This document shows, piece by piece, positions 1,839 to 19,445 of a stretch of 35,812 nucleotides of DNA. The stretch is from Kutzneria sp. 744. Its GTDB lineage: Bacteria; Actinomycetota; Actinomycetes; Mycobacteriales; Pseudonocardiaceae. The notes under the pieces were generated by a model. That model was not told where the DNA came from, did no database searches, and saw only the letters and a program-made list of their open reading frames with translations. Each line of letters begins with the position of its first letter. The first letter of the stretch is position 1. The DNA is taken from contig NZ_KK037166.1 of NCBI RefSeq assembly GCF_000568255.1, positions 8,325,920 through 8,361,731 on the forward strand, written 5' to 3'. The position numbers were made by a program, and so were the translations under genes.

Positions 1839-2468
1839 TCAGTGCGCGGTGACGCGCACGGCCAGCAGGCGCAATGCGGTCACGATTTCGTCGACCGAAT
1901 GGCCCCGGGTGTGCCGCTGGAACCAGTAGACCTCCGGCGCCAGGCCGGCCAGCACGGTGTCGCACAGGACGTCCGCGTCGCGCACCTCGGCCGCGGTGAG
2001 CAGCAGCCGGACGTGCGAACGCCAGAACGCGTAGGCCCCCGTGGTGTACCGGGCGTGCCCGGTCTCCGCGCCCAGCGCCAAATGCAGGTGGGCCTCCAGC
2101 AGATGCACCATCGCGGTGAGGAACGCCGCCAGCCGATCGGCCGGGGCCGCCCCGGGGCCCAGCGGCGGCGCGCCCAGGATGATCTTCGCCTGCAGCGCCC
2201 GCTCGTGCTCGTCCAGCAGCGCGACCGCGATGGACCGGGTGTCCGGGTAGCGGCGGTAGAGCGTGGCCCGGCCGATGCCCGCGGCCTTGGCGATCTCGTC
2301 CATGGTGACGCTGTCGGTGCCGGCTTCCGCGAACAGCCGCTCGGCCGCGGCCAGCACCTTCGCGCGGTTGCGGGCCGCGTCCGCCCGTTCGACCGGACGG
2401 GCCGGCAACCCGCTGGAACCCACGATCGGCAGGTCGAACGGCTGACCGTCGTGAGTCCTGCTCGGCAT
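1839..2468 (-). CDS. TetR/AcrR-family transcriptional regulator
   Basis: The 209-residue protein has the TetR helix-turn-helix at about residues 33-80 (RAKVLAAAERLFAEAG, VTMDEIAKAAGIGRATLYRRYPD). The rest is the all-helical ligand-binding domain, not assignable to a ligand. The start is an ATG with AAGGTGG upstream. It is transcribed divergently from the DMT transporter operon. The 105-bp gap between them holds two copies of a GGACA-N3-TGTCC palindrome, so it very likely represses itself and the transporter/MBL/DsbA operon. Because this operon abuts the nitroimidazole cluster, the inducer may be a pathway product or intermediate (inference). Confidence 0.9.
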   Translation of the reverse strand: MPSRTHDGQPFDLPIVGSSGLPARPVERADAARNRAKVLAAAERLFAEAGTDSVTMDEIAKAAGIGRATLYRRYPDTRSIAVALLDEHERALQAKIILGAPPLGPGAAPADRLAAFLTAMVHLLEAHLHLALGAETGHARYTTGAYAFWRSHVRLLLTAAEVRDADVLCDTVLAGLAPEVYWFQRHTRGHSVDEIVTALRLLAVRVTAH

Positions 2469-2573: not shown

Positions 2574-3554
2574 ATGGACGCCATCTTCGTGATCTCGGCA
2601 CTGCTCATCGGCGGCCTGCTAGCCATCCAGGCCTCGGTGAACGTGCAGCTCAACAAGGCGGTCGGCACGCCGTACGGCGCGTCGACGCTGCAACTGGGGG
2701 TCGCCGCCGGCGTCCTCGTGCTGGCCACCGCGGCGGTCGGCGGCTTCGGCGGGCTGGCCCAGATCTCGCACGCCCAGCCGTGGCAACTACTCGGCGGCCT
2801 GGCCAGCCCGCTCTACATCACCAGCGGCATCCTGCTGTTCCCGAGACTGGGGGCACTGGCGGCCGGCGGCCTGTTCGTGACCGGCCAGATGATCTCGTCG
2901 CTGAGCATCGACCTGCTGGGGCTGTTCGACATCCCGCGCAAGCCGGTCAGCCTCGGCATCGCGCTGGGCGTGCTCGCCCTGCTGGCCGGCATCGTCGTGA
3001 TCATCCGCGGCCAGGGCAAGGCGGCCAAGCCGGCGGCGCCCGTGCCGGCCAAGTCGGTCGGCGCGGCCGGGGTGCCGGCCGCCACCCGCACCGGCGCCGG
3101 CCAGATCCCGTGGATCCTGCTCGGCATCGTCGGCGGCGGCGTGCTGCCCATCCAGGCCGGCATCAACGCCTCGCTGCGCGAGGTCGTCGGCAACCCGGTG
3201 ACCGTCGACATGATCAGCTTCCTGGTGGCCGTGCTGGCCATCTTCATCGTGCTGGTCGTGCTGCGCTCGCTCAACAAGACGCCCGCGCCGAAGTTCGCGC
3301 CGCTGCGGGAGATGCCGTGGTGGGGCTGGCTCGGCGGCATCTGCGCGTCGATCTACGTGCTGGTCACGTTCCTGGCGATTCCCGCCATCGGCGCCGCCGG
3401 CACCGTCGCGCTGACCGTCACCGGGCAGCAGATCGCCTCGGCCACCGTGGACAGCCGCGGGCTGTTCCGGATGGCCCGACGCAAGCTCACCGCGCCCCGC
3501 ATCACGGGCCTCGGCCTGCTGGTCGTCGGCTCGGTGCTGATCCAGTTCACCTGA
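2574..3554 (+). CDS. DMT-superfamily transporter of the YdcZ (DUF606) type
   Basis: The 326-residue protein is almost entirely hydrophobic and is built of two similar halves of about five membrane helices. Each half begins with a related motif (GLLAIQASVNVQLNKAVGTPYGAS and GVLPIQAGINASLREVVGNPVTVD) and carries a later VTGQ(M/Q)I(S/A)S(L/A)xxD segment (VTGQMISSLSID, VTGQQIASATVD). This internal duplication is typical of YdcZ-type members of the drug/metabolite transporter superfamily. A linker rich in Ala/Pro/Lys at about residues 145-180 joins the halves. The start has AGGTAGGGG just upstream. It is the first gene of a TetR-regulated operon with the MBL-fold and DsbA-fold genes. Efflux of a small toxic metabolite, possibly the nitroimidazole, is the natural guess. 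Confidence 0.88.
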   Translation: MDAIFVISALLIGGLLAIQASVNVQLNKAVGTPYGASTLQLGVAAGVLVLATAAVGGFGGLAQISHAQPWQLLGGLASPLYITSGILLFPRLGALAAGGLFVTGQMISSLSIDLLGLFDIPRKPVSLGIALGVLALLAGIVVIIRGQGKAAKPAAPVPAKSVGAAGVPAATRTGAGQIPWILLGIVGGGVLPIQAGINASLREVVGNPVTVDMISFLVAVLAIFIVLVVLRSLNKTPAPKFAPLREMPWWGWLGGICASIYVLVTFLAIPAIGAAGTVALTVTGQQIASATVDSRGLFRMARRKLTAPRITGLGLLVVGSVLIQFT

Positions 3555-3576: not shown

Positions 3577-4398
3577 ATGCGTGAGGCCTATGTCGCGGCC
3601 AAGGACGTGCACGTCCTGCCGTCGCAGTTACCCATTCCCGGCGCCGGCCTGCTCCCGGTCAACTGCTACCTGGTCAGGGGCAGCGAACCGGTGCTCGTCG
3701 ACACCGGGATGCCCATCGACGCCGTCGACTTCGCCGAGACCCTGTGGTCGGTGGTGGACCCCGCCGACCTCAAGTGGCTGGTGCTCACCCACGACGACCG
3801 GGACCACTCCGGCAACATCGTGCAGATCATGGCGGAGGCGCCCAACGCCGTCCTCGTCACCAGTCAGCTGTCGGTCGTGCGCCTGTCCGAGGAGTGGGAC
3901 CTGCCGCGCGACCGCATGCTGCTGGTGAACCCCGGCAGCTCGTTCACGGCCGGCGACCGCGAGTTCAGCATCCTGCGCCCGCCCGCCTTCGACTCGCCGG
4001 CCACCCTGGCCGCCTTCGACCACGGCTCGCGCACGCTGTTCAGCGCCGACAGCTTCGGCTCCGTGCTGCCGACCGTCGCCAACGACGTCGACGACGTCAA
4101 GGAGTCGGACTTCTTCGAGGGTTTCTCCCTGTTCAACCGGTCCAACCACCCGTGGGTCGCGCTCACCGACCCGGCCAAGTTCGAGGTGGTGCTGCACCAG
4201 ATTCGGGCCCTGGGGCCGGACCGCATCCTCAGTTCGCACGGGCCGGCGGTGGAGGGCCGGGTGGACCGGCTGCTCGACGCCATGGCCGAGATCCCGACCC
4301 TGCCGATGGTGCTGCCCCCGGACCAGCTCGACCCCGAGGCCGTGCTGGGCCGGCTCGAGTTCAACGACCAGCCGCCCGTCGTCGCCGCCGGCGACTGA
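3577..4398 (+). CDS. Metallo-beta-lactamase-fold protein with HxDxDH site, related to the diiron (ODP) domain
   Basis: The 273-residue protein reads PVNCYLVRGSEPVLVDTG (residues 27-44), then LTHDDRDHSG (H72, D74, D76, H77), LFSADSFG and SSHGP, the order of an MBL-fold enzyme. The usual HxHxDH is HxDxDH, like the acidic ligand pattern (HxExDH) of flavodiiron proteins and oxygen-binding diiron proteins rather than zinc hydrolases. The histidine that normally follows the first motif by about 60-70 residues is not obvious. There is no flavodoxin domain. The start ATG follows GGGGGAG, 22 bp after the transporter gene. An oxygen- or nitro-group-handling redox role is possible but unproven; a hydrolase role cannot be excluded. 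Confidence 0.85.
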   Translation: MREAYVAAKDVHVLPSQLPIPGAGLLPVNCYLVRGSEPVLVDTGMPIDAVDFAETLWSVVDPADLKWLVLTHDDRDHSGNIVQIMAEAPNAVLVTSQLSVVRLSEEWDLPRDRMLLVNPGSSFTAGDREFSILRPPAFDSPATLAAFDHGSRTLFSADSFGSVLPTVANDVDDVKESDFFEGFSLFNRSNHPWVALTDPAKFEVVLHQIRALGPDRILSSHGPAVEGRVDRLLDAMAEIPTLPMVLPPDQLDPEAVLGRLEFNDQPPVVAAGD

Positions 4399-4437: not shown

Positions 4438-5112
4438 ATGGACCTGACGCCACCCAAGGGTGTCGTGATCGTCTTCTCCGACATCTGGTGCTCGTTCGCG
4501 CACATCACGATCCACCGCCTGCACGAGTCCAGGAAACGGCTCGGGCTGGAGGAGCAGATCCGGTTCGACCACCGGGCCTTCCCGCTGGAGCTGCTGAACA
4601 ACGCGCCGAGCCCGCGCACCGGCACGGACAGCGAGGTCGGGCGGATGGCCAGCGTCGAGCCGGGGGCGGGCTGGCAGCTGTGGCAGGACAAGGACTGGCT
4701 GTACCCGTCCTCGACGCTGCCCGCGCTGGAGGCGATCCAGGCGGCCAAGGAACAGAGCCTCGACGCCTCGGAACGGCTGGATCTGGGGCTGCGCAAGGCT
4801 TTCTGGGCGCAGTCGCGGTGCATCACCAACCAGCGGGTGATCCTGGACGTCGCGGCCGAGGTCGGCATCGACGCCGCGCACATCGAGGCGTCGCTGAACG
4901 ACGGCCGGGCCCGCTCGGAGCTGTCGGCGCAGGCGGCGGTGTCGGCGACCGAGGTCGTCAACTGCAGCCCGCACCTGTTCCTGCCGGACGGCAGCGACCA
5001 TGCCAATCCGGGCATCAAGGTCGGCTGGGAGGGCGACTACGGCGTGGGCTGGCCGGTGATCGGCGGGGACGACCCGTCGGTGGTCGACGAGCTGCTCAAG
5101 CGCTCGCTGTGA
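4438..5112 (+). CDS. DsbA-fold (thioredoxin-like) oxidoreductase family protein, paralogue of 10378-11076
   Basis: The 224-residue protein fits the DsbA/FrnE-like family: an N-terminal beta strand leading into SDIWCSFAH (C18), a long helical insertion, and a C-terminal CSPHLFLPDG segment in the place of the cis-proline loop. The CxxC redox motif is reduced to C-S-F-A, so disulfide exchange by the normal mechanism is unlikely, although other cysteines exist (RCITN, NCSPH). There is no signal peptide, so it is cytoplasmic. It shares long identical stretches (FDHRAFPLEL, ERLDL, VILDV, DGRAR-like, NCSPH) with the last gene of the roh operon. It ends the TetR-controlled operon, followed by a strong terminator. 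The start has GAGGAG upstream. Confidence 0.85.
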   Translation: MDLTPPKGVVIVFSDIWCSFAHITIHRLHESRKRLGLEEQIRFDHRAFPLELLNNAPSPRTGTDSEVGRMASVEPGAGWQLWQDKDWLYPSSTLPALEAIQAAKEQSLDASERLDLGLRKAFWAQSRCITNQRVILDVAAEVGIDAAHIEASLNDGRARSELSAQAAVSATEVVNCSPHLFLPDGSDHANPGIKVGWEGDYGVGWPVIGGDDPSVVDELLKRSL

Positions 5113-5151: not shown

Positions 5152-5185
5152 AAGGGGCGCCACCGTGACGGGTGGCGCCCCTTTT
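5152..5185 (+). terminator. Rho-independent terminator after the transporter/MBL/DsbA operon
   Basis: A perfect 13-bp stem (5152-5164 with 5171-5183, core GGGGCGCCACC) closes a six-base loop and runs into TTTT. It separates the TetR operon from the roh operon. Confidence 0.9.
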
Positions 5186-5345: not shown

Positions 5346-5365
5346 ACGAACTGCTGTCAGTTCGT
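5346..5365 (+). promoter_or_regulatory. Perfect inverted repeat in the roh leader
   Basis: ACGAACTG-CTGT-CAGTTCGT lies 52 bp before the first roh start codon. It could be an operator or a leader hairpin. The surrounding stretch (5250-5417) is less GC-rich than the genes and presumably contains the roh promoter; no single -35/-10 pair stands out (TAGGCT near 5302 is a candidate -10). Confidence 0.45.
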
Positions 5366-5417: not shown

Positions 5418-6620
5418 ATGGCGGACAATGCGCTCACCGTTGTTGTCGACGAGGAATTCGCCGCCGCGTCCGGCCGGCTCGTCGACCTGACCCAGCACGA
5501 GATCCAGGCGCTCAAGACCCGGTTCAACCTGGCCGACGCGCACACCCACCAGCACCAGTCCGGCAGCCAGGAGGACATCGTCGCCCGGCTGCCCAAGCTG
5601 TGGTACGAGTCCGAGGACAACCAGCAGTCCTTCATGGAGCAGAAGTTCATCGACGCCTTCTTCCGGCTGCACAAGCAGCCGACGGCGGCCCGCCTGGGCA
5701 AGACGATGCTGTCCTACGCGGCCAGCGTGTCCACCATGGTGGCGGCGATGTTCCTGCGCCGGCGGGGCATGTCGGTGTCGCTGATCGAGCCGTGCTTCGA
5801 CAACCTGGTGGACCTGCTCAAGAACATGGACGTGCCGCTGGCCGCGGTCGACGAGTCGGTGTTCGCCGAGCTGGACGGCATCTACGACGGCCTGCGCCGC
5901 ACGGTCACCACCGACGCGCTGTTCATCGTGGACCCGAACAACCCCACCGGCTTCAGCCTGCTCAAGGACGGCAGCTCCGGCTTCGAGCAGGTGGTCCGCT
6001 ACTGCGTCGACCACAACAAGACGCTGCTGATCGACCAGTGCTTCGCCTCCTTCGCGCTGGCCGACAAGAACGTGGACCGCTTCGACGTGTACCGGCTGCT
6101 GGAGGAGTCCGGCGTCACGTACCTGATCATCGAGGACACCGGCAAGACCTGGCCCATCCAGGACGCCAAGTGCGCCATGCTGACCACCAGCGACGACATC
6201 TACTCCGACGTCTACAACCTGCACACCAGTGTGCTGCTCAACGTGTCCCCGTTCGTGCTGAACTTCGTCAGCCACTACATCGAGGACTCCATCGACGACT
6301 CGCTGGCCTCGGTCGGCGACGTGATCGCCCGCAACCGCGAGGTGGTCCGCACGGGCCTGGCCGGCACGGTGCTGGAGTACATCGAGCCGGTGGTCAACGT
6401 CAGCGTCGCCTGGTTCCACATCACCGACCCGAACCTGACCGCCACGCGGCTCCAGCAGATCCTGCAGGAGGCCGAGGTGTACGTGCTGCCCGGCACCTAC
6501 TTCTACTGGAACCGGCCCGAGCGCGGCGAGCGCTACGTGCGGCTGGCCCTGGCCCGCGACCCCGGCCTGTTCGCGCAGGCGATCCGGGTCATGAGCGAGA
6601 CGCTGCGCGCCCATGCGTGA
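5418..6620 (+). CDS. rohP: PLP- and O2-dependent L-arginine oxidase/hydroxylase, RohP/MppP family
   Basis: The 400-residue fold-type-I PLP enzyme has DPNNPTG (172-178), D206 for the pyridine nitrogen, and EDTGKTWP with K243 as Schiff-base lysine. The stretches [19 protein letters not shown], [13 protein letters not shown] and [11 protein letters not shown] resemble the MppP group, which despite its aminotransferase ancestry oxidises arginine with O2 to 4-hydroxy-2-ketoarginine. In azomycin biosynthesis the corresponding enzyme is RohP and catalyses the first step. GAGGGGGAG precedes the ATG. Its end overlaps the next gene by 8 bp. The downstream genes favour RohP over the enduracididine enzyme MppP, since no MppQ or MppR homologue is present here. 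Confidence 0.9.
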
Positions 6621-7107
6621 AGTCATCGATGCCGCCACGTTCATGGGCATGCACTGTGCCGACGAGCGGATCCGGTTGGCGTGCAAGGCGTTCTTTGTTG
6701 AACGGCTCGACGGCTCGGTGCTGATGAGCCAGGAGCAGGTCGGCCGCTGCGACGCGCTGGTGTGGACCTACGGCCGCGCCGACCAGGACGCCTACTACCC
6801 GTTCATGGACAACCTGCACACGGTGGTCCGCATCGAGCGGCCGGCCTACACCGAGGAAGACGTGCGGACGGCGCTGGACGAGCCGGCGCTGAAGGAACTG
6901 CCGATGCACGAGCGCCTGCTGATGGGCATGGTGATCGCCACTGGCTCGGTGCTGCGGACCCCGAACCCGCGGCTGGCGGCCCGCGCCGACCTGCCGGTGC
7001 GGCCGCTGCCGGCGGCCGCGAACACCGCGTTTCCCGAGCCGCTGGAACGGATGTACGCCGAGTCGCTCGCGCTGAGCGTGCCGACCGACTTCCTCGAGGA
7101 GCGTTGA
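6613..7107 (+). CDS. rohQ: Small protein in the position of the RohQ cyclodehydratase
   Basis: The 164-residue protein begins [20 protein letters not shown] and contains [23 protein letters not shown] and [19 protein letters not shown] do not recognise a domain from the sequence alone. It overlaps rohP by 8 bp and its TGA shares one base with the ATG of the aldolase-like gene, so it is certainly part of the operon. In the described azomycin pathway RohQ closes guanidinoacetaldehyde to 2-aminoimidazole. The assignment here rests on gene order and the identity of its neighbours rather than on motifs. Confidence 0.72.
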
Positions 7108-7883
7108 TGTACCAGGGAACCATCGTCCCGCTGATCACGCCGCTCGACGGCGGCGCGGTGGCGGAGAAGGGCGTGCAGCGGCTGATCGAGTCGGTGCGCG
7201 GCGAGGTCACCGGCCTGATGCCCACGCTCAGCTCGGGTGAGGGCTGGGCCCTGTCCGAGCAGCAGTGGCTGGACATGGTGTCGTACACCATCCGACACGC
7301 CAACGGACTGCCGGTGCTGTCGGGCATCCAGCTGCCCGACACCAAGTCCGTGATCGAGCGATCGCTGGTGGCCGAGGACCTCGGCGTGTCGGCGGTGGTC
7401 GTCACGACGCCGTTCGGGGCGGACGTCAGCCAGGACGCGATCCTGGCGCACTACCGGGAACTGCGGGCCGCGGTGCAGGTGCCGATCTTCCTGTACAACG
7501 AGCAGGCCCTGTCCGGCAACCACATCGCCGTCGAGACGCTGCTGCGGATCTGCCAGCTGCCGGGCATCGCCGGCATCAAGGAGTCCAGCGGCGACGCGGC
7601 GCTGACCAGCCGGATCGCCGCCGAGCTGAGCATCCCGGTGTTCGAGGGCTGGGAGAACCTGCTGTCCGAGGTGACCGGCGTCGCCGGCCTCATCGGACCG
7701 CTGGCCAACCTGGAACCCGGGCTGTGCAACGCGATGCTGGCCGAGCCGTCGGCCGACCGGCAGGCGGCGATCAACGCGGCGTGCGAGAAGTACGGCGTGT
7801 TCAAGGACGACTGGTACCGCTGGGTGAAGCAGGAGCTGCGGAGCCGGGGCGTGATCGACAGCGACGAGGTGGTCGCGACATGA
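7107..7883 (+). CDS. rohR: DHDPS/N-acetylneuraminate lyase-family retro-aldolase, RohR-like
   Basis: The 258-residue TIM-barrel protein has GTIVPLITPL at the N-terminus, LYNE with Y130, and GIKESSGD with the Schiff-base lysine K158, the hallmark of the dihydrodipicolinate synthase family. The substrate-carboxylate loop usually reading TTGE is SSGEGW here, and YNxP is YNEQ, so it is not a housekeeping DapA. The protein is also shorter than DapA (about 290). In the azomycin pathway the homologue RohR cleaves 4-hydroxy-2-ketoarginine to pyruvate and guanidinoacetaldehyde. Start and stop overlap both neighbours. Confidence 0.85.
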   Translation: MYQGTIVPLITPLDGGAVAEKGVQRLIESVRGEVTGLMPTLSSGEGWALSEQQWLDMVSYTIRHANGLPVLSGIQLPDTKSVIERSLVAEDLGVSAVVVTTPFGADVSQDAILAHYRELRAAVQVPIFLYNEQALSGNHIAVETLLRICQLPGIAGIKESSGDAALTSRIAAELSIPVFEGWENLLSEVTGVAGLIGPLANLEPGLCNAMLAEPSADRQAAINAACEKYGVFKDDWYRWVKQELRSRGVIDSDEVVAT

Positions 7884-8692
7884 TGCGCCGGCTCTACCAG
7901 CTCAACCGGTCGGTGCCGACCGCGCAGGAGTACGCCGAGATCCTGGAGATCGAGGAGAAGTGGCTGGGGCAGCGCATCTGCGAGCTCACCGCCGCGGCGC
8001 CGCACTTCGCCAGCCGCACCGCGTTGTTCACCGCGCTGTCGGAGCGATTACGGGACGAGGAAGCGGCCGGGTCCGAGGCCGACGCGTACATCGCGGAGCA
8101 CGCCACCCTGGAGCAGTTCAAGGTGATCGTGGGCGAGTTCGCGGTCGACGGGCTCGTGGAGTCGTTGTCCCACTTGCCGATCGTGCCGCGGCTGCCCCAC
8201 CGGGCCGGCATGTCCGTGTTCCGGGTGCTGATCGACGAGCTCGGCTGCGGCAACGTCGAGCAGGCGCACTCCCAGCTGTACCGGGATCTGCTGACCGAGC
8301 TGGACATGAGCACCGACCTGGAGTCCTATCTGGACGGCGGGAACGAGGAGAGCTACGCCTACGTCAACCTGTTCCACTGGTTGGCCCGGCGGGCCCCGGC
8401 CCCGGAGACGTTCCTCGGCGCCTACGCGTACTTCGAGTCCAGCGTGCTGTTCGCCTTCAAGTGCTACGCGGTCGCGGCCAAGCGACTCGGGATCAGCCAC
8501 GACAAGTACTACACCGAGCACCTGTACATCGACGACTTCCACAGCAAGCAGATGCGCACCGCGCTGATGGAGCTCGACGCCGAGCGGGGGCTCGACCTGG
8601 CCAAGGTGTGGGCCGGGGTGGAGCTGACCAGCGAGGTCGCCGCCACCGCGACCGAGGCCGCCGTGGCCAAGGCCCGAGAGGTGGCCCCGTGA
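7880..8692 (+). CDS. rohS: Heme-oxygenase-like diiron N-oxygenase, RohS-like (2-aminoimidazole to azomycin)
   Basis: The 270-residue all-helical protein carries the metal-ligand set of heme-oxygenase-like diiron oxidases: E86 (VGEFAVDGLVES), E120 and H130 in DELGCGNVEQAH, E186 in YFESSVL, and H214-x3-D218-x2-H221 in EHLYIDDFH. This spacing resembles that of N-oxygenases such as the central domain of SznF. In azomycin biosynthesis RohS oxidises 2-aminoimidazole to 2-nitroimidazole. All ligands are present, so the enzyme looks functional. The first of two adjacent ATGs (7880) overlaps the aldolase stop as ATGA; the second (7883) is an equally possible start. It is the signature gene that makes a nitro product likely. 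Confidence 0.9.
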   Translation: MMRRLYQLNRSVPTAQEYAEILEIEEKWLGQRICELTAAAPHFASRTALFTALSERLRDEEAAGSEADAYIAEHATLEQFKVIVGEFAVDGLVESLSHLPIVPRLPHRAGMSVFRVLIDELGCGNVEQAHSQLYRDLLTELDMSTDLESYLDGGNEESYAYVNLFHWLARRAPAPETFLGAYAYFESSVLFAFKCYAVAAKRLGISHDKYYTEHLYIDDFHSKQMRTALMELDAERGLDLAKVWAGVELTSEVAATATEAAVAKAREVAP

Positions 8693-8943
8693 TCGGCCGA
8701 CGGACCGGGTCGGACGTCCTCAGACCCCTCGGTGAGCACGAGGTCCTGGTGACCGCGGGCGGCCGGCACATCGTGGTGCCGGCCGCCTGCCCTCACCGCG
8801 GCGGACGGCTGCGTTACGGCTACGTGGACGAGAAGCGGCTGCGCATCACCTGCCCGCTGCACTTCGCGACCTTCGACCTGTGCACGGGGGAACGGGTGGC
8901 GGGTCCGGACTGCGCCGCCCTGCCGGTGAGGGAGGCCGAATGA
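8689..8943 (+). CDS. rohT: Small Rieske [2Fe-2S] protein, RohT-like
   Basis: This 84-residue protein starts at a GTG that overlaps the N-oxygenase stop (GTGA). It contains a complete Rieske cluster motif, CPH (C34, H36) and CPLH (C55, H58), but no catalytic-oxygenase domain. It is probably a ferredoxin that supplies electrons to the diiron N-oxygenase, which must be re-reduced between turnovers. A Rieske protein occupies the same place in the azomycin cluster. It overlaps the permease start by four bases (ATGA). Confidence 0.85.
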   Translation: MIGRRTGSDVLRPLGEHEVLVTAGGRHIVVPAACPHRGGRLRYGYVDEKRLRITCPLHFATFDLCTGERVAGPDCAALPVREAE

Positions 8944-10376
8944 GCGACACCGAGAAGGCCGGCAGGCTGGAAGCCCATGGCATTGACGTGATCCCGGAGG
9001 GGGAGCGCGTCTCGCGGCCGTCGGACTTCCTGTGGATCTGGCACTCCGCGCAGTTCTCCTTCGGCACGGTCGTGCTCGGCGCGCTGCCGGTGGTCTTCGG
9101 GCTGGGCTGGTGGGCCAGCGTCACGGCGATCACCGCCGGCCTGGTGCTGGGCGTGGCCCTGGTGGCGCCGGTGGTGTTGTTCGGGCTGCGGACCGGCACC
9201 AACGACGCCATCGCCAGCGGGGCGCACTTCGGGGTCAGGGGCCGGGTGGTCACGAACGTGATCACCATCGGCGTGGGGCTGGGGTTCTTCGCCATCACGG
9301 TGTGGACCGGCGGCACCGCGGTGATGGTGGCCGGCCACCGGATGTTCGGCACACCAACGGGTTCGGCGGCGCTGGCGGCCACGATGCCGGTCGTGGCGGT
9401 GGCGGTGATCCTGGTCGCGGTGTACGGCCACGCCACGCTGATCGCGATGTACAAGATCACGGCGGTGGTGGGCGGCCTGGTCGTGCTGGGCATGGTTGCG
9501 GTGCTGGCGCCGCAGTTCTCCGCCGACTACGCCGGCGGCGACTACGCGCTGGGCAGCTTCTGGGCGACCTGGCTGCTGTCGGCGCTCGTGGCGACCTCGG
9601 TGCCGTTGTCCTACGCCACTTTCCAGGGCGACTACAGCCGCTACTTCCCGGCGAACACCAAGGCGTCCAAGCTGATGCTGTGGAACGGCGGGTCGCTGCT
9701 GCTCAGCTGCCTGCTGGCGTTGCTGGCCGGCGCCTACGTCACCACGGTGTTCCAGGACAAGACCCAGCCGTGGGTGCAGTCGCTGACCGACTCGGTGCCG
9801 GTCTGGTTCGCCGTGGTGGTTATCCTGTTCGGCTTCGTCGGCTCGTTCCCGCAGGGCTCGCTGTGCGTGTACGCCGCCGGCCTGTCGGCCAACTCGATCT
9901 TCTGGCGCAAGTCGCGGGCGTTCGCCACGATCCTGGTGTCGGTGCTGGGCTTCGTGTTGCTGTACGTGGGAACCATGGTGTTCGACACCGTCGACTCGAT
10001 GGCCGCCTTCGTCACCATGCTGCTGGTCGCGGTGTCGCCGTGGGCGGCAGTGATGATCATCGGCTACCGGCACCACCAGGGCGCATACCACGCGGCCGAT
10101 CTCGGGGCCTTCGCCACCGGCGGCGGCGGAAGGTACTGGTACCGCAACGGATACAATCCCAGGGCGATCGCCGCGATGGCGCTAGGCGTGGTGGTCGGCG
10201 TGCTCTCGGTCGGCAACGCCGTCTACATGGGACCGATCGCCGAGCTGCTGGGCGGGCTGGACCTGAGCTGCCTCACGTCGTTCGCGGCCACGGCCGTGGC
10301 CTACGCGCTGCTGCTGCGGGCCTACCCGGAGAAAACGGCCGCACAGCGGGAAAATCCGGTTCTGGCTGGGGTGTGA
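8940..10376 (+). CDS. NCS1-family (cytosine/purine/allantoin-type) permease
   Basis: The 478-residue protein has about twelve hydrophobic helices and the usual NCS1 opening: a cytosolic segment (SRPSDFLWIWHSAQFSFG), GLRTGTNDAIASGAHFGVRGR and, in the middle, SYATFQGDYSRYFP, which resembles the NCS1 DYxRY signature. NCS1 carriers normally move nucleobases or hydantoins with protons or sodium. Since 2-nitroimidazole and 2-aminoimidazole are small planar N-heterocycles of similar shape, this member may move the product or an intermediate. Its ATG overlaps the Rieske stop and its own stop is one base before the next ATG, so it is an integral operon member. Confidence 0.88.
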   Translation: MSDTEKAGRLEAHGIDVIPEGERVSRPSDFLWIWHSAQFSFGTVVLGALPVVFGLGWWASVTAITAGLVLGVALVAPVVLFGLRTGTNDAIASGAHFGVRGRVVTNVITIGVGLGFFAITVWTGGTAVMVAGHRMFGTPTGSAALAATMPVVAVAVILVAVYGHATLIAMYKITAVVGGLVVLGMVAVLAPQFSADYAGGDYALGSFWATWLLSALVATSVPLSYATFQGDYSRYFPANTKASKLMLWNGGSLLLSCLLALLAGAYVTTVFQDKTQPWVQSLTDSVPVWFAVVVILFGFVGSFPQGSLCVYAAGLSANSIFWRKSRAFATILVSVLGFVLLYVGTMVFDTVDSMAAFVTMLLVAVSPWAAVMIIGYRHHQGAYHAADLGAFATGGGGRYWYRNGYNPRAIAAMALGVVVGVLSVGNAVYMGPIAELLGGLDLSCLTSFAATAVAYALLLRAYPEKTAAQRENPVLAGV

Positions 10377-10377
10377 G

Positions 10378-11076
10378 ATGGACCAGACGCGTTATCCCAC
10401 GAGCCCGGAGACCATCGTCGTCTTCACCGACCTGAACTGCTCCTTCGCGCACCTGGCCGTGTACAAGCTGCACGAGGCCCGCTGCCGGCTGGGCCTGGAG
10501 GGGCGGATCTCCTTCGACCACAGGGCGTTTCCGCTGGAGCTGTTCAACCTCACGGTGAACGAGCGGCCCGGCGTGGACTCGGAGGTGGCGGTCGTCGGCG
10601 GCATCGAGCCGAATGCCGGCTGGCGGCTGTGGCAGGGCCCGGACTGGACGTACCCGGTGACGATGCTGCCGGCGCTGGAGGCCGTGCAGGCGGCCAAGCG
10701 GCAGGGCTGGCAGGCCAGCGAGCGGCTGGATCTGGCCCTGCGTCAGGCGTTCTGGGCGCAGGGACGGTGCATCAGCATGCGGCACGTGATTCTGGACGTC
10801 GCCGAGGGCACGAAGGCCGTCGACGTCAAGGAGTTGGCCGCCGATCTGGACACCGGCCGGGCCCGGGCCGACGTGATGGCGCAGTTCGAGGCGGCCCGGG
10901 AGGGGCGGGTGAACTGCAGCCCGCACGTGTTCCTCGCCGACGGCACCGACGAGGCCAATCCGGGCGTGCGGGTGGACTGGGTGAACGGCGGTTTCGGCAT
11001 CGGCTACCCCGTGATCGAGGCCTACGACCCCACGGTGTTCGACCGCCTGCTCTGCCACGCCGCGTCACTGCTGTGA
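10378..11076 (+). CDS. DsbA-fold (thioredoxin-like) family protein ending the roh operon
   Basis: The 232-residue protein is a clear paralogue of the one at 4438-5112. TDLNCSFAH (C21) replaces the CxxC motif, with the same single cysteine and the same NCSPHVFLADGTD loop. By eye roughly half of the positions are identical over the full length. The ATG lies one base after the permease stop. It may act on a pathway intermediate, as a glutathione- or mycothiol-transferase-like or isomerase-like enzyme of the DsbA fold, or protect against the nitro compound. Neither copy has a signal peptide. Confidence 0.85.
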   Translation: MDQTRYPTSPETIVVFTDLNCSFAHLAVYKLHEARCRLGLEGRISFDHRAFPLELFNLTVNERPGVDSEVAVVGGIEPNAGWRLWQGPDWTYPVTMLPALEAVQAAKRQGWQASERLDLALRQAFWAQGRCISMRHVILDVAEGTKAVDVKELAADLDTGRARADVMAQFEAAREGRVNCSPHVFLADGTDEANPGVRVDWVNGGFGIGYPVIEAYDPTVFDRLLCHAASLL

Positions 11077-11093: not shown

Positions 11094-11126
11094 CCGGCTG
11101 AACGGTTCGCCACACCGTTCAGCCGG
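11094..11126 (+). terminator. Hairpin terminator after the roh operon
   Basis: A perfect 12-bp stem CCGGCTGAACGG / CCGTTCAGCCGG encloses nine bases. Flanking AACCAC and GTGGTT can extend it. There is no T tract, as is common for actinomycete hairpin terminators. Confidence 0.7.
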
Positions 11127-11141
11127 TCCTGTGGTTGACAC

Positions 11142-11290
11142 ATGACAATTCACGACCAACGCCGCGCCCTGGTCGTCGGCCTGGGCATCAGCGGCCTGGC
11201 GACCGCGAAGCAGCTGTCCGAATCGGGGTGGCGGACCGTCGTCGTGGAACGGGCTCCGGCCCGGCGCGGCGACGGTTACTTCCCGACCTG
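11142..11290 (+). pseudogene. N-terminal remnant of an FAD-dependent oxidoreductase/monooxygenase
   Basis: The 48-codon frame reads ALVVGLGISGLATAKQLSES followed by WRTVVVERAP, the GxGxxG dinucleotide-binding fold and the acidic end of its second strand, and then stops after GDGYFPT. Aromatic hydroxylases of this class are 400-500 residues long, so only the first tenth remains. The next 170 bp up to the TetR remnant include an open stretch (GFEPLPGLAPEDGEF and onwards) that I do not recognise; it may be debris of the same or another gene. Confidence 0.6.
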
Positions 11291-11460
11291 ACCACCCACG
11301 ACGGCGGGTTCGAGCCGCTGCCCGGACTCGCCCCGGAGGACGGCGAGTTCCGCCGGCCGCCGGCGGTCCACACGCGCAAAGCCCGCGGGCCCGAGCGCGG
11401 CTTCGCCATGAAGGACTACGACATCGCCGCCGCCCGAGTGGCCACAGTGGACGGAGAAGG

Positions 11461-12179
11461 ATGAGGCACGATCCCGCCAAGACCGAGCGGATTCTCGCGG
11501 TGTCACGGGAACTCGTGCTGAGTCGGGGCGTGCGCAACGTCAGCGTCTCCGACATCGCCCGCCCGGGCCCACATCGGGCGGGGCACGCTGTACCCTGTAC
11601 TGGAAGACCAAGGAAGACCTGTTCGTCGAGCTGGTCGCCCGCGACTACGTGGCCGCCACCGACGAGTACATCGACGCGCTGGCCGAGAATCCCGGCGTCG
11701 TCGGTCCACATCGGATGCTGCCCGCGATGGTCGAGTCCGGACTGCGGCACGCCTTCGTGCGAGCGGTGCAGACCGCCGACCTGGACACCTTGGGCCTGCT
11801 CGGCCAGCACGAGAAGACCCGGGCGCTGCTCGGCGTGCTGGGTCCCGGCCGGATGTCCGCCGCCCTGCTGCCGATCTGGCGCCGGCACGGCTTCGCCCGC
11901 ACGGACTGGCCCGTGGCCGAACAGGAATACGTGATCCGGGCCGTGAACGCCGGGTTCTACTCCCTCGCCGTCAACACCGATGCCGTGCTGCACCCTGACG
12001 GTTTCGACACCGGAGCCGTGTTCGCCAGTTCGGTGCACGCCGTTCTCGACGCGCCGGGTGTGACGCCGGATGTCGAACCGGCCGCCGCCGAGGCCCGGGA
12101 ACTGCTGATCGGGCACCGCAACGCCGTCGTCGAATCGCTTTCGCTCGCCCACCACGCGAGCCGATCCCTGAAACCGTGA
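11461..12179 (+). pseudogene. TetR-family regulator with two single-base insertions
   Basis: The reading frame begins MRHDPAKTERILAVSRELVLSRG and continues to SVSDIAR. One extra C in the run at 11562-11564 moves it to a frame reading AHIGRGTLY. A second extra C at 11593-11595 moves it to the frame reading YWKTKEDLFVELVARDYV and on to the end. Removing both restores a canonical TetR helix-turn-helix (DIARRAHIGRGTLYLYWKTK) and a 238-residue protein. Both lesions are CC to CCC, so either slippage has killed the gene or the assembly has homopolymer errors. The adjacent FAD-oxidoreductase stub favours true decay. Confidence 0.75.
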
Positions 12180-13400: not shown

Positions 13401-14690
13401 ATGCGCGATGCTGTGGTCCATACCTTGGCCGGCGACGTCCGAGGCCGGTGGACGGACGAGGTGTCGAGCTTTCTCGGCATTCCCTACGCCGCCGCGCCCT
13501 TCGGACCTCGCCGCTTCCGCGCCCCGGCTCCGGTGACGCCGTGGACCGGCGTCCGCGATGCGCTGGAGTTCGGGCCGACCCCGCCCGGCGCGGGCCTGAT
13601 CCCGGGCGGCGACCCGTTCCCGGATCCCAAGATCCCCGGCGAGGACTGCCTCAACCTCAACGTGTGGACGCCGGCGCTGACCGGGAAGCGACCGGTGCTG
13701 GTGTGGATTCCCGGCGGCGGCAACGTGATGGGCTCGGCCGCGCAGGCCGTGTACGACGGGGCCGCGTTCGCCCGTGACGGCGTGGTGCTGGTGTCGATCA
13801 ACCACCGGCTCGGCGCGGAAGGTTTCGCCCACCTGCCGGACGCCCCGGCCAACCGGGGCCTGCGCGACCAGATCGCCGCCCTGGAGTGGGTGCGGGACAA
13901 CATCTCCGCCTTCGGTGGCGACCCGGCCAACGTCACAGTGGCTGGGCTGTCAGCCGGGGCCGGATCCGTGATGTCGTTGCTGTCGTTGGACACCGGGCTG
14001 TTCCGGCGGGCGATCATCCAAAGTGGCCTGTTGCGCGGTGCGCACGCTCCCGAGGACGCCGCCCTGGTCGCCGCCCGGATCGCCCGGCACGCGGGGGTCG
14101 AGGCGACGGCCCAGGCGTTGAGCGCCATTGATCCGGAGACTCTGGCCGGTATCGCCCTTGCCGTGTACGGGGAGTTGCAGGCCAACCCGGATCCGGCGGT
14201 GTGGGGCGCCACGACCACGGGCTCCGCCCTGGCCTTCAGCACGGTCGTCGATGGCTCGTTGGTGATAGTTGACCCGTGGCAACGCGTTCTCGACGGATCG
14301 GGCCAGGAGGTGGACCTGATGGTCGGCTGCGCCTCGGACGAGCTGCTCCGCATGCTGCCCGGCGCCGCCGATGTCGCCGCCACGTTGACCCAGGCCCTGT
14401 TCCGCGGGCCCATTCATGAGATGGCCGAGCACCGTCCCGGTCGGACCTTCGTCTACGAGTTCGCCTGGCGCTCACCGCTTCCCGGCGTCGGCGCGGCCCA
14501 CGGCCTGGACATCGGCTTCGTCTTCGACACCCTCGGCCACTCCGCGCTGGAGGGTGACGCGCCGCCACAGGATCTCGCCGACACCATGCACCAGGCCTGG
14601 ATCTCGTTCGCCCGCGACGGGGCGCCGGGCTGGTCGGAGTTCCCGTCGGTGATGCGCTTCGACACCCCGGTCGAAATCGTGGCCCGGTAA
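13401..14690 (+). CDS. Type-B carboxylesterase
   Basis: The 429-residue protein follows the carboxylesterase B pattern: FLGIPYAAAPFGPRRFRAP, EDCLNLNVWTP, VLVWIPGGGNVMGS (oxyanion hole), RDNISAFGGDPANVTVAGLSAGAGS with the nucleophile serine in GLSAG, and AAHGLDIGFVFD containing the probable catalytic histidine. The nucleophile elbow has Leu where GESAG has Glu, an acceptable variant. It has no signal peptide and is shorter than the usual 500 residues, missing part of the C-terminal region. It hydrolyses esters; the substrate is unknown. It is followed after about 70 bp by the AfsR-like regulator. Confidence 0.88.
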   Translation: MRDAVVHTLAGDVRGRWTDEVSSFLGIPYAAAPFGPRRFRAPAPVTPWTGVRDALEFGPTPPGAGLIPGGDPFPDPKIPGEDCLNLNVWTPALTGKRPVLVWIPGGGNVMGSAAQAVYDGAAFARDGVVLVSINHRLGAEGFAHLPDAPANRGLRDQIAALEWVRDNISAFGGDPANVTVAGLSAGAGSVMSLLSLDTGLFRRAIIQSGLLRGAHAPEDAALVAARIARHAGVEATAQALSAIDPETLAGIALAVYGELQANPDPAVWGATTTGSALAFSTVVDGSLVIVDPWQRVLDGSGQEVDLMVGCASDELLRMLPGAADVAATLTQALFRGPIHEMAEHRPGRTFVYEFAWRSPLPGVGAAHGLDIGFVFDTLGHSALEGDAPPQDLADTMHQAWISFARDGAPGWSEFPSVMRFDTPVEIVAR

Positions 14691-14759
14691 GGAAACGGAA
14701 ACATCCGGGGCACCCTCGCGTTGCTAGGCTGGCAACGAGGACCGAAGGGAGGACACCGG

Positions 14760-18004: not shown

Positions 18005-19445
18005 GATTCAACTGGTCGTCGCAACACCTCGACGTCAGGGGTTTGTGATGGCCGGATTGAAGCAGAAACTGGCGCGTGAGTACCGCGGTCAGATGCCGTC
18101 GCCTGGGCGTCCAACGGTGGCATGGCGCGAGGATCGAGTCAGGTTTTGGGCTGCGATCGCGCGAGGCGAGAAGACCGAGGACGCGGCTACGAAGGCCGGC
18201 GTGTCGGGACCGGTCGCGTTCAGATGGTTCCGTCACGCTGGCGGCGTGAATCCAGCTCTTCCTCCGACGGTGTCGGGCCGGTACTTGTCCTTCGCTGAAC
18301 GAGAGGACATCGCGATCTTGCGTGCGCAAGGCGTTGGCGTTCGTGAGATTGCTCGACAACTCGGGCGTGATGCTTCGACGATCTCGCGCGAGTTGCGGCG
18401 CAACGCATCGACCCGAACCTACAACCTCGACTACAAGGCCTCGACCGCGCAATGGCATGCCGAGCGTCGTGCTCGCCGGCCAAAAGCCTCGAAGCTAGCC
18501 GACAATGAACCGTTGCGCGGGTACGTGCAGGAGCGGCTCTGCGGCCAGGTTCGCCGGCTGGACGGGACATCTGTGGTGGGGCCGGGGACAGCGCCTTGGA
18601 AGGGGCGGAACAAGCCACGGCGTCAGGACCGGCGATGGGTCAACGCGTGGAGCCCAGAGCAGATCTCCCAGCGGCTGAAGGAAGATTTCCCGTACGACGA
18701 GTCCATGCGTATCTCGCACGAGGCGGTCTACCGGGCGCTCTACGTTCCCGGCCGCGGCGCGCTCGAACGTGAGCTGGTTGCCTGTCTGCGCACCGGCCGG
18801 GCACTGCGCGTTCCTCGTTCCCGTGCCCGTCGACGGGCAAGCGGTCACGTGACAACCGATCTCATGATCAGCGAGAGGCCGGTCGAGGTGGAGGACCGCA
18901 CGGTTGCCGGGAACTGGGAGGGAGATCTGATCATCGGCTTGAACAGCTCCGCGATCGGCACTCTGGTCGAGCGGACCACCAGGTTTACGCTGCTGCTACA
19001 TCTTCCTCGTATGCAGGGGTATGGCCACGGTCCGCGCGCGCACAACGGCCCGGCGTTGGCCGGCCGCGGCGCCGAAGCTGTCCGGAACGCGATCGCCGCA
19101 ACGATCACAGCGCTGCCCGAGCAACTGCGCCGGACACTGACATGGGACCGAGGCAAGGAATTGGCCCAGCATGCCCAGTTGACGATCGACACCGGCCTGC
19201 GGATCTTCTTCGCTGATCCGCACAGTCCGTGGCAACGGGGCACCAACGAGAACACGAATGGCTTGCTGCGACAGTATTTTCCGAAGGGCACTGACCTGGC
19301 CCGCTGGGGTCGCGACGAGCTCGATGCCGTTGCCGCCGTGCTCAACAACCGTCCACGTAAGACACTGGGCTGGAAGACACCGGCCGAAGCGCTGAACGAA
19401 CTGCTACTCTCCCAATGAGCCGGTGTTGCGACGACCGGTTGAGTC
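18005..19445 (+). mobile_element. Complete IS30-family insertion sequence, 1441 bp, with TG target duplication
   Basis: The ends form 24-bp imperfect terminal inverted repeats (18005-18028 and 19422-19445; GGTGTTGCGACGACC is common to both) with two mismatches. The element is flanked by the dinucleotide TG on both sides (18003-18004 and 19446-19447), which fits the 2-3 bp target duplications of IS30. Removing the element and one TG restores the convergent DUF998 frame. It holds one intact transposase gene and looks recently inserted and possibly active. Confidence 0.9.
18048..19418 (+). CDS. IS30-family transposase
   Basis: The 456-residue protein has an N-terminal helix-turn-helix region (YLSFAEREDIAILRAQGVG, GRDASTISRELRRN) and a DDE catalytic core: NWEGDLIIG (first Asp near 290), LTWDRGKEL (second Asp near 366) and QRGTNENTNGLLRQYFPKGTD (Glu near 400). 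The D-to-E spacing of about 34 and the PKGTD segment are typical of IS30. It ends three bases before the right inverted repeat. It has no frameshift or stop, so it should be functional. Confidence 0.93.
   Translation: MAGLKQKLAREYRGQMPSPGRPTVAWREDRVRFWAAIARGEKTEDAATKAGVSGPVAFRWFRHAGGVNPALPPTVSGRYLSFAEREDIAILRAQGVGVREIARQLGRDASTISRELRRNASTRTYNLDYKASTAQWHAERRARRPKASKLADNEPLRGYVQERLCGQVRRLDGTSVVGPGTAPWKGRNKPRRQDRRWVNAWSPEQISQRLKEDFPYDESMRISHEAVYRALYVPGRGALERELVACLRTGRALRVPRSRARRRASGHVTTDLMISERPVEVEDRTVAGNWEGDLIIGLNSSAIGTLVERTTRFTLLLHLPRMQGYGHGPRAHNGPALAGRGAEAVRNAIAATITALPEQLRRTLTWDRGKELAQHAQLTIDTGLRIFFADPHSPWQRGTNENTNGLLRQYFPKGTDLARWGRDELDAVAAVLNNRPRKTLGWKTPAEALNELLLSQ

Follow-up and report, generated by a model that had tools for sequence, protein, structure and literature searches.

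We analysed a 35,812-nucleotide stretch of the Kutzneria sp. 744 genome (contig NZ_KK037166.1, positions 8,325,920 to 8,361,731 of the forward strand; hereafter the window, whose own numbering is used throughout), which carries a gene cluster of the rohPQRST type known from azomycin (2-nitroimidazole) biosynthesis. At its core, the five overlapping genes rohP, Q, R, S and T occupy, in this order, positions 5418-8943 of the forward strand, followed on the same strand by an NCS1-family permease and a DsbA-fold gene, as an earlier sequence-only reading of this DNA had proposed; the genes are real and their coordinates correct. Neighbouring genes overlap by 8, 1, 4, 4 and 4 bases from the P/Q to the T/NCS1 junction, and a single base separates the permease gene from the DsbA-fold gene. 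The predicted products are a pyridoxal phosphate (PLP)- and O2-dependent L-arginine oxidase of 400 amino acids (RohP, 5418-6620; Aminotran_1_2), a PIN-fold cyclodehydratase of 164 amino acids (RohQ, 6613-7107; DUF6190, 3.6e-69), a retro-aldolase of 258 amino acids with a dihydrodipicolinate synthase (DHDPS) fold (RohR, 7107-7883; PF00701, 1.2e-26), a haem-oxygenase-like diiron N-oxygenase of 270 amino acids (RohS, 7880-8692; Haem_oxygenas_2), an 84-residue Rieske ferredoxin with a GTG start, the probable electron donor (RohT, 8689-8943; PF00355, 1.1e-11), the 478-residue permease (8940-10376; Transp_cyt_pur, PF02133, 1.8e-48) and a 232-residue protein with an NCSFAH motif and an FrnE / kappa-glutathione S-transferase-like fold (DsbA2, 10378-11076; DSBA).

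Compared with solved proteins, P matched 6c3a (2e-164, 550 bits), an entry titled 'Uncharacterized protein' that we take to be Streptomyces cattleya RohP, far better than the enduracididine enzyme MppP (1.1e-55, 193 bits), supporting its assignment as a RohP-like PLP oxidase. RohP is described as originating from S. cattleya (PMC7497351). The protein at the RohQ position proved to be a RohQ homologue by sequence, profile and predicted model: it matched 9c5w ('Cyclodehydratase RohQ') at 5.4e-26 by sequence and 1.5e-43 by profile, and its AlphaFold2 model (pLDDT 95) aligned to 9c5w with template modelling (TM) scores of 0.89/0.90, the next-best structures being PIN-domain proteins. The predicted fold is thus like that of both RohQ crystal structures (9c5w and 9oq8; TM ~0.9, 34-35% identity), although these are more distant from the window protein than are its lineage I or IIb relatives (see below). 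S matched 9pfx ('PbrRohS') at 5.8e-50 and SznF at 8.1e-10, and it resembles the PbrRohS structures 9pfx/9pfw in length and diiron ligands. R retrieved generic DHDPS-type structures only, from a PDB copy that has no entry named RohR, and its likeness to RohR was borne out at the level of fold and catalytic residues, the level at which closeness was compared. MppP and SznF share superfamilies and related chemistry with P and S, but are far weaker matches, and further genes of their pathways are absent at the window locus. Homologues from other pathways and a Q protein unlike RohQ, which the sequence-only reading had named as evidence that would count against it, were not what these searches returned, since the best solved matches of P, Q and S are Roh proteins.

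The RohQ family was matched in only 2 of 396 genomes sampled across the phylum and in 16 of 297 family genomes (the window's own genome being in both), and the 18 loci fetched around RohQ matches (17 genomes) all have P, R, S and T adjoining Q in the same order. Because the family is rare and the order constant, the gene set of the window is not a chance assembly. A genome scan with a RohP alignment yielded 152 stretches and 125 confirmed matches, of which 80 were kept; the resulting counts are samples that lean towards close relatives. Twelve loci with identical RohP were dropped as duplicates (11 fetched twice, and L087, which equals L084, the latter on a shorter contig), as were L106 and L115, which lack RohS, leaving 85 loci including the window.

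Across the relatives aligned from these loci, the catalytic and metal-binding residues are conserved almost without exception. K243, D206, N175 and R375 of RohP are present in 85/85 sequences, Y130 and K158 of RohR in 83/83, and the Rieske residues of RohT in 82/82 (C34, H36) or 81/82 (C55, H58). In RohS, E94, E120, H130, E186, H214, D218 and H221 are found in all 83 aligned sequences. Six of these ligands had been named before; the seventh had been given as E86, a position that is variable (E in 45, Q in 33, D in 4 and H in 1). The spacing between E94 and E120 is 26 residues, as between E189 and E215 of SznF. From this spacing and its conservation in 83/83 sequences, the first iron ligand is E94 rather than E86.

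The actinobacterial roh loci that we examined fall into three lineages with different companion genes, a division that is new here. Lineage labels were taken from the RohS tree (with L084 and L098, which lack S, placed by P or R), tree roots were set at midpoint, and the totals are 24 loci in lineage I, 8 in IIa, 44 in IIb (including the window) and 9 in proteobacteria, some of them truncated by contig ends. The RohS tree of 83 rows comprises 9 proteobacterial rows, 23 of lineage I (support 100/99) and 51 of lineage II (100/98), the last divided into IIa (7 rows, 100/100) and IIb (44 rows, 100/99). In a RohP tree built separately, every one of the four groups is set apart by a branch of its own (SH-aLRT 96, 95, 93 and 100); the RohQ tree did not separate lineage I, IIb and the proteobacteria, and among the rows listed for the RohR tree one IIb row (L033) joins IIa. 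Six genomes were seen to carry two roh clusters each (L042/L085, L065/L083, L070/L091, L060/L096, L056/L076 and L061/L092), four pairing lineage I with IIa, one I with IIb and one IIb with IIb.

Window RohS belongs to IIb and does not group with the RohS of Actinokineospora terrae (lineage I), an enzyme that makes azomycin (PMC10724926, Table 1). We equated that enzyme with L095, a lineage I locus of the same species in whose genome one RohQ was matched. Its identity is 63-90% to lineage I, 44-47% to IIa and 41-49% to IIb, which places the Kitasatospora azatica RohS, 64% identical to it in the same table, in lineage I. The 6c3a alignment shows I104, V133, T213 and R360; T213 occurs in 24/24 RohP rows of lineage I and R360 in 23/24, and each is found in 0/61 others. 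For S. eurocidicus, which carries one lineage I and one IIa cluster, the published identities to Pseudomonas CMR5c (P 54.6, Q 38.2, R 36.1, S 40.6 and T 38.8%) fit the lineage I locus L070 better than the IIa locus L091 for P, R and S and are unclear for Q and T, with other Pseudomonas standing in for CMR5c in this comparison. At the positions of window S95, Y182, L190 and Y216, PbrRohS carries A, I, P and H, resembling the proteobacterial rows. Among the characterised Roh enzymes compared, none was placed in lineage II, the placeable RohS being of lineage I or proteobacterial-looking. With S. cattleya RohP, the A. terrae and K. azatica RohS and the roh genes of S. eurocidicus and Pseudomonas DF41/CMR5c, the window shares the five genes, their order and the catalytic residues, whereas its RohR (40-48% identical to lineage I) and RohS (45-50%) set it in a separate lineage. 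Judged by homology and gene order, the window cluster belongs to the rohPQRST azomycin family.

Around this core, the operon at 5418-11076 was confirmed, but its extent was incomplete as first described, as the cluster runs upstream to about 1839. A TetR-type regulator (1839-2468, reverse strand; PF00440, 2.8e-14) is divergent from the gene for a YdcZ-type DMT membrane protein, a candidate exporter (2574-3554; PF04657, 2.5e-59). Between the two lies an imperfect palindrome (2532-2549) that recurs, with 2 mismatches, ahead of the exporter gene of the congener locus L009 and may serve as an operator. The exporter gene is followed, also on the forward strand, by genes for a metallo-beta-lactamase-fold protein of the ODP/flavodiiron type without a flavodoxin domain (3577-4398; PF19583, 2e-12) and a first DsbA-fold protein with a WCSFAH motif and conserved Cys (DsbA1, 4438-5112; PF01323, 6.6e-12). 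In the metallo-beta-lactamase-fold protein, H72, D74, D76, H77, D139, D158 and H221 are at least 95% conserved in 38 sequences, and the nearest solved protein is flavorubredoxin (8.5e-13). After DsbA1, a perfect 13-bp hairpin with a TTTT tail (5152-5183, forward strand) is a probable terminator; it is absent from the output of a terminator scan that demands five T. An 8-bp inverted repeat upstream of rohP (5346-5365) has no counterpart in L009, which makes it a weak operator candidate. Directly 3' of DsbA2, a perfect 12-bp hairpin read in the sequence (11094-11126, forward strand) probably marks the end of the operon. Just beyond it, inspection by eye showed a flavoprotein N-terminus ended early by a stop and a frame-broken TetR-like gene (11143-12179), and these genes appear decayed. 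About 7 kb downstream of the operon, an open reading frame resembling an IS30-type transposase was noticed by eye (18045-19418).

The companion genes follow the lineages. In lineages I (24 loci), IIa (8), IIb (44) and proteobacteria (9), respectively, we counted the YdcZ-type exporter in 0, 0, 37 and 0 loci, the metallo-beta-lactamase-fold protein in 0, 0, 38 and 0, and the NCS1 permease in 0, 0, 34 and 0; DsbA-fold proteins in 21, 8, 39 and 0; a PRMT5-like methyltransferase in 23, 0, 0 and 5, a multicopper oxidase in 18, 0, 0 and 0, YceI in 21, 0, 0 and 0 and MarR in 21, 0, 0 and 1; and pyruvate dehydrogenase (PDH) E1 in 0, 8, 0 and 2 and GntR in 0, 8, 1 and 0. Companion families were checked against Pfam for L070, L091, L117 and the window TetR, and their presence is inherited together and follows the tree, so that the counts are not independent events. 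A simple gene caller found a related TetR gene in 28/44 IIb and 9/24 lineage I loci. The IIb rows without the exporter are L041, L043, L082, L088, L092, L099 and L033; the L043 stretch starts just before rohP, leaving upstream genes outside, and L088 has a partial match only. Loci with the IIb cassette come from Pseudonocardiaceae, Streptomycetaceae, Streptosporangiaceae, Micromonosporaceae and Nocardiopsidaceae, those of the last family lacking NCS1.

The association was also visible in family-wide searches, in which two 297-genome searches were taken as the same draw and thresholds were picked after the lists had been viewed. DsbA-fold matches at E <=1e-74 occurred in 15/16 genomes with RohQ and 4/281 without (15/16 and 32/281 at 1e-20), the four exceptions having a tandem DsbA pair with none of the others among the window's ten genes nearby. 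Lactamase-fold matches of at least 48% identity were found in 8/10 IIb roh genomes, 0/6 lineage I genomes and 0/281 without RohQ, the next best reaching 43%. In one genome without a RohQ match, tandem DsbA-fold genes with YceI- and MarR-like open reading frames (L119, 7003-10042) resemble, by eye, a small lineage I companion module lacking roh.

Relative to lineage I, the window lacks the PRMT5-like methyltransferase, multicopper oxidase, YceI and MarR, and relative to IIa it lacks PDH E1. Its additional genes appear to serve transport, redox functions or protection; tailoring, which the earlier reading had also entertained, was not borne out, as enzymes of the kinds that accompany other roh lineages (methyltransferases, ligases and the like) were not detected at the window locus. 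Elsewhere, PDH E1 (aceE-like) lies within 10 kb of rohP in 8/8 IIa loci (L091, L083, L085, L096, L093, L094, L103 and L084) and 2/9 proteobacterial ones (Pseudomonas L111 and L117), with 48-49% identity between the groups; the gene may provide a duplicate of an azomycin target, or a means of using the pyruvate released by RohR. The PRMT5-like methyltransferase stands beside roh in 23/24 lineage I loci (in L070 at 13640-14713) and in the proteobacterial loci L107, L109, L112, L116 and L118, raising the question whether these clusters make, or inactivate, a methylated product.

RohS itself differs between the lineages. Y182 is present in all 44 IIb sequences, where the 39 others have L (lineages I and IIa) or I or L (proteobacteria), and Y216 in 41/44, three having H216, as against H in 39/39 others. 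S95 and L190 are common to IIb and IIa, with A and P in lineage I and proteobacterial rows, while F185 and V189 are fixed in IIb and also found in 6/9 proteobacterial RohS. Positions 182, 189 and 190 sit one helical turn away from the ligand E186, 95 adjoins E94, and 216 falls between H214 and D218; these positions may face the substrate. In P and Q, respectively, 4 and 0 positions separate lineage I from IIb at 90% conservation, and with so few differences the steps up to 2-aminoimidazole should be the same.

Every gene of the known azomycin scheme is present in the window, and a route can be proposed in which homology, gene order, residues and lineage come from the sequence and the reactions from literature on relatives. 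RohP would convert L-arginine and O2 to 4-hydroxy-2-ketoarginine, which RohR would split into guanidinoacetaldehyde and pyruvate; the PIN-fold RohQ would close and dehydrate guanidinoacetaldehyde to 2-aminoimidazole, whose amino group RohS, fed by RohT, would oxidise, most likely to azomycin. This presumes that window RohS performs the same full oxidation as its relatives, with RohT as its electron donor. The YdcZ-type protein and the NCS1 permease may move product or intermediate, and the two cytosolic-type DsbA-fold proteins may protect thiols or conjugate reactive species. In Pseudomonas DF41, deletion of rohPQRST abolishes azomycin (PMC12713392), and on the midpoint-rooted tree IIb is bracketed by this strain and A. 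terrae of lineage I, both linked to azomycin, which we count in favour of the same product here. Taken together, azomycin is probably the main product of the window cluster, with a probability of roughly 0.8.

Several observations weigh against this assignment. Among the characterised enzymes compared, no assayed one was placed in IIb; identity to lineage I is only 40-48% for window R and 45-50% for window S; and IIb RohS has Y182 (44/44) and Y216 (41/44), positions taken in the 39 others by L or I and by H, respectively. Two roh clusters share a genome in six cases, five of them of differing lineages, which suggests different roles, and azomycin was undetectable in broth of two roh-bearing P. 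syringae strains (PMC12713392).

IIb could be functionally distinct, with a RohS, bearing tyrosines 182 and 216 beside the iron site, that leaves 2-aminoimidazole at another oxidation state or that oxidises an imidazole which is carried or imported (this would account for the NCS1 permease), and with the exporter, flavodiiron-like and DsbA-fold genes as a producer-protecting cassette; we regard this combined proposal as unlikely, although, if true, the companions of the four groups (methyltransferase, PDH E1 and exporter set) would represent alternative self-protection around one core. Improbable, too, is that IIb RohS gives a hydroxylamino, nitroso or coupled product from 2-aminoimidazole or acts on another substrate, in which case the cluster would yield an azomycin relative. 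The IIb-only Y182, four residues before E186, and Y216 between H214 and D218 speak for it, as do the coexistence of lineages in single genomes and the differing companion sets; S95 and L190, too, are absent from every lineage I and proteobacterial row, but are common to IIa, F185 and V189 recur in 6/9 proteobacterial RohS, and three IIb rows have H216. All seven iron ligands and the P, Q and R residues are kept, and no added tailoring enzyme was seen at the window locus, in line with azomycin as the product.

A silent or decayed cluster, giving no product under natural conditions, is very improbable: the flavoprotein fragment and broken TetR-like frame lie just downstream, but the frames from P to DsbA2 and those upstream are intact and, over matched length, 87-94% identical to L009 in the same order. 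A different arginine-oxidase pathway, for instance that to enduracididine or indolmycin, was suggested by P being an MppP/Ind4-type PLP enzyme whose best NCBIfam model is endura_MppP, and is refuted by the RohQ (9c5w) and RohS (9pfx) matches, with RohT also present, the model scoring 177 bits against a cut-off of 450 and 6c3a scoring 550 bits against 193 for MppP.

The nitroimidazole drugs have their natural model in azomycin, and the window holds a complete azomycin-type gene set in a branch with its own probable transport and protection genes. Among the papers retrieved on azomycin, Roh and nitroimidazole, judged mostly from titles and the beginnings of abstracts, we found no account of such a companion cassette or of self-protection. 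If IIb makes azomycin, the window would contribute additional N-oxygenases, and the conserved set of companion genes would be a place to search for producer self-protection; if it makes something else, natural nitroimidazole chemistry would be wider than known.

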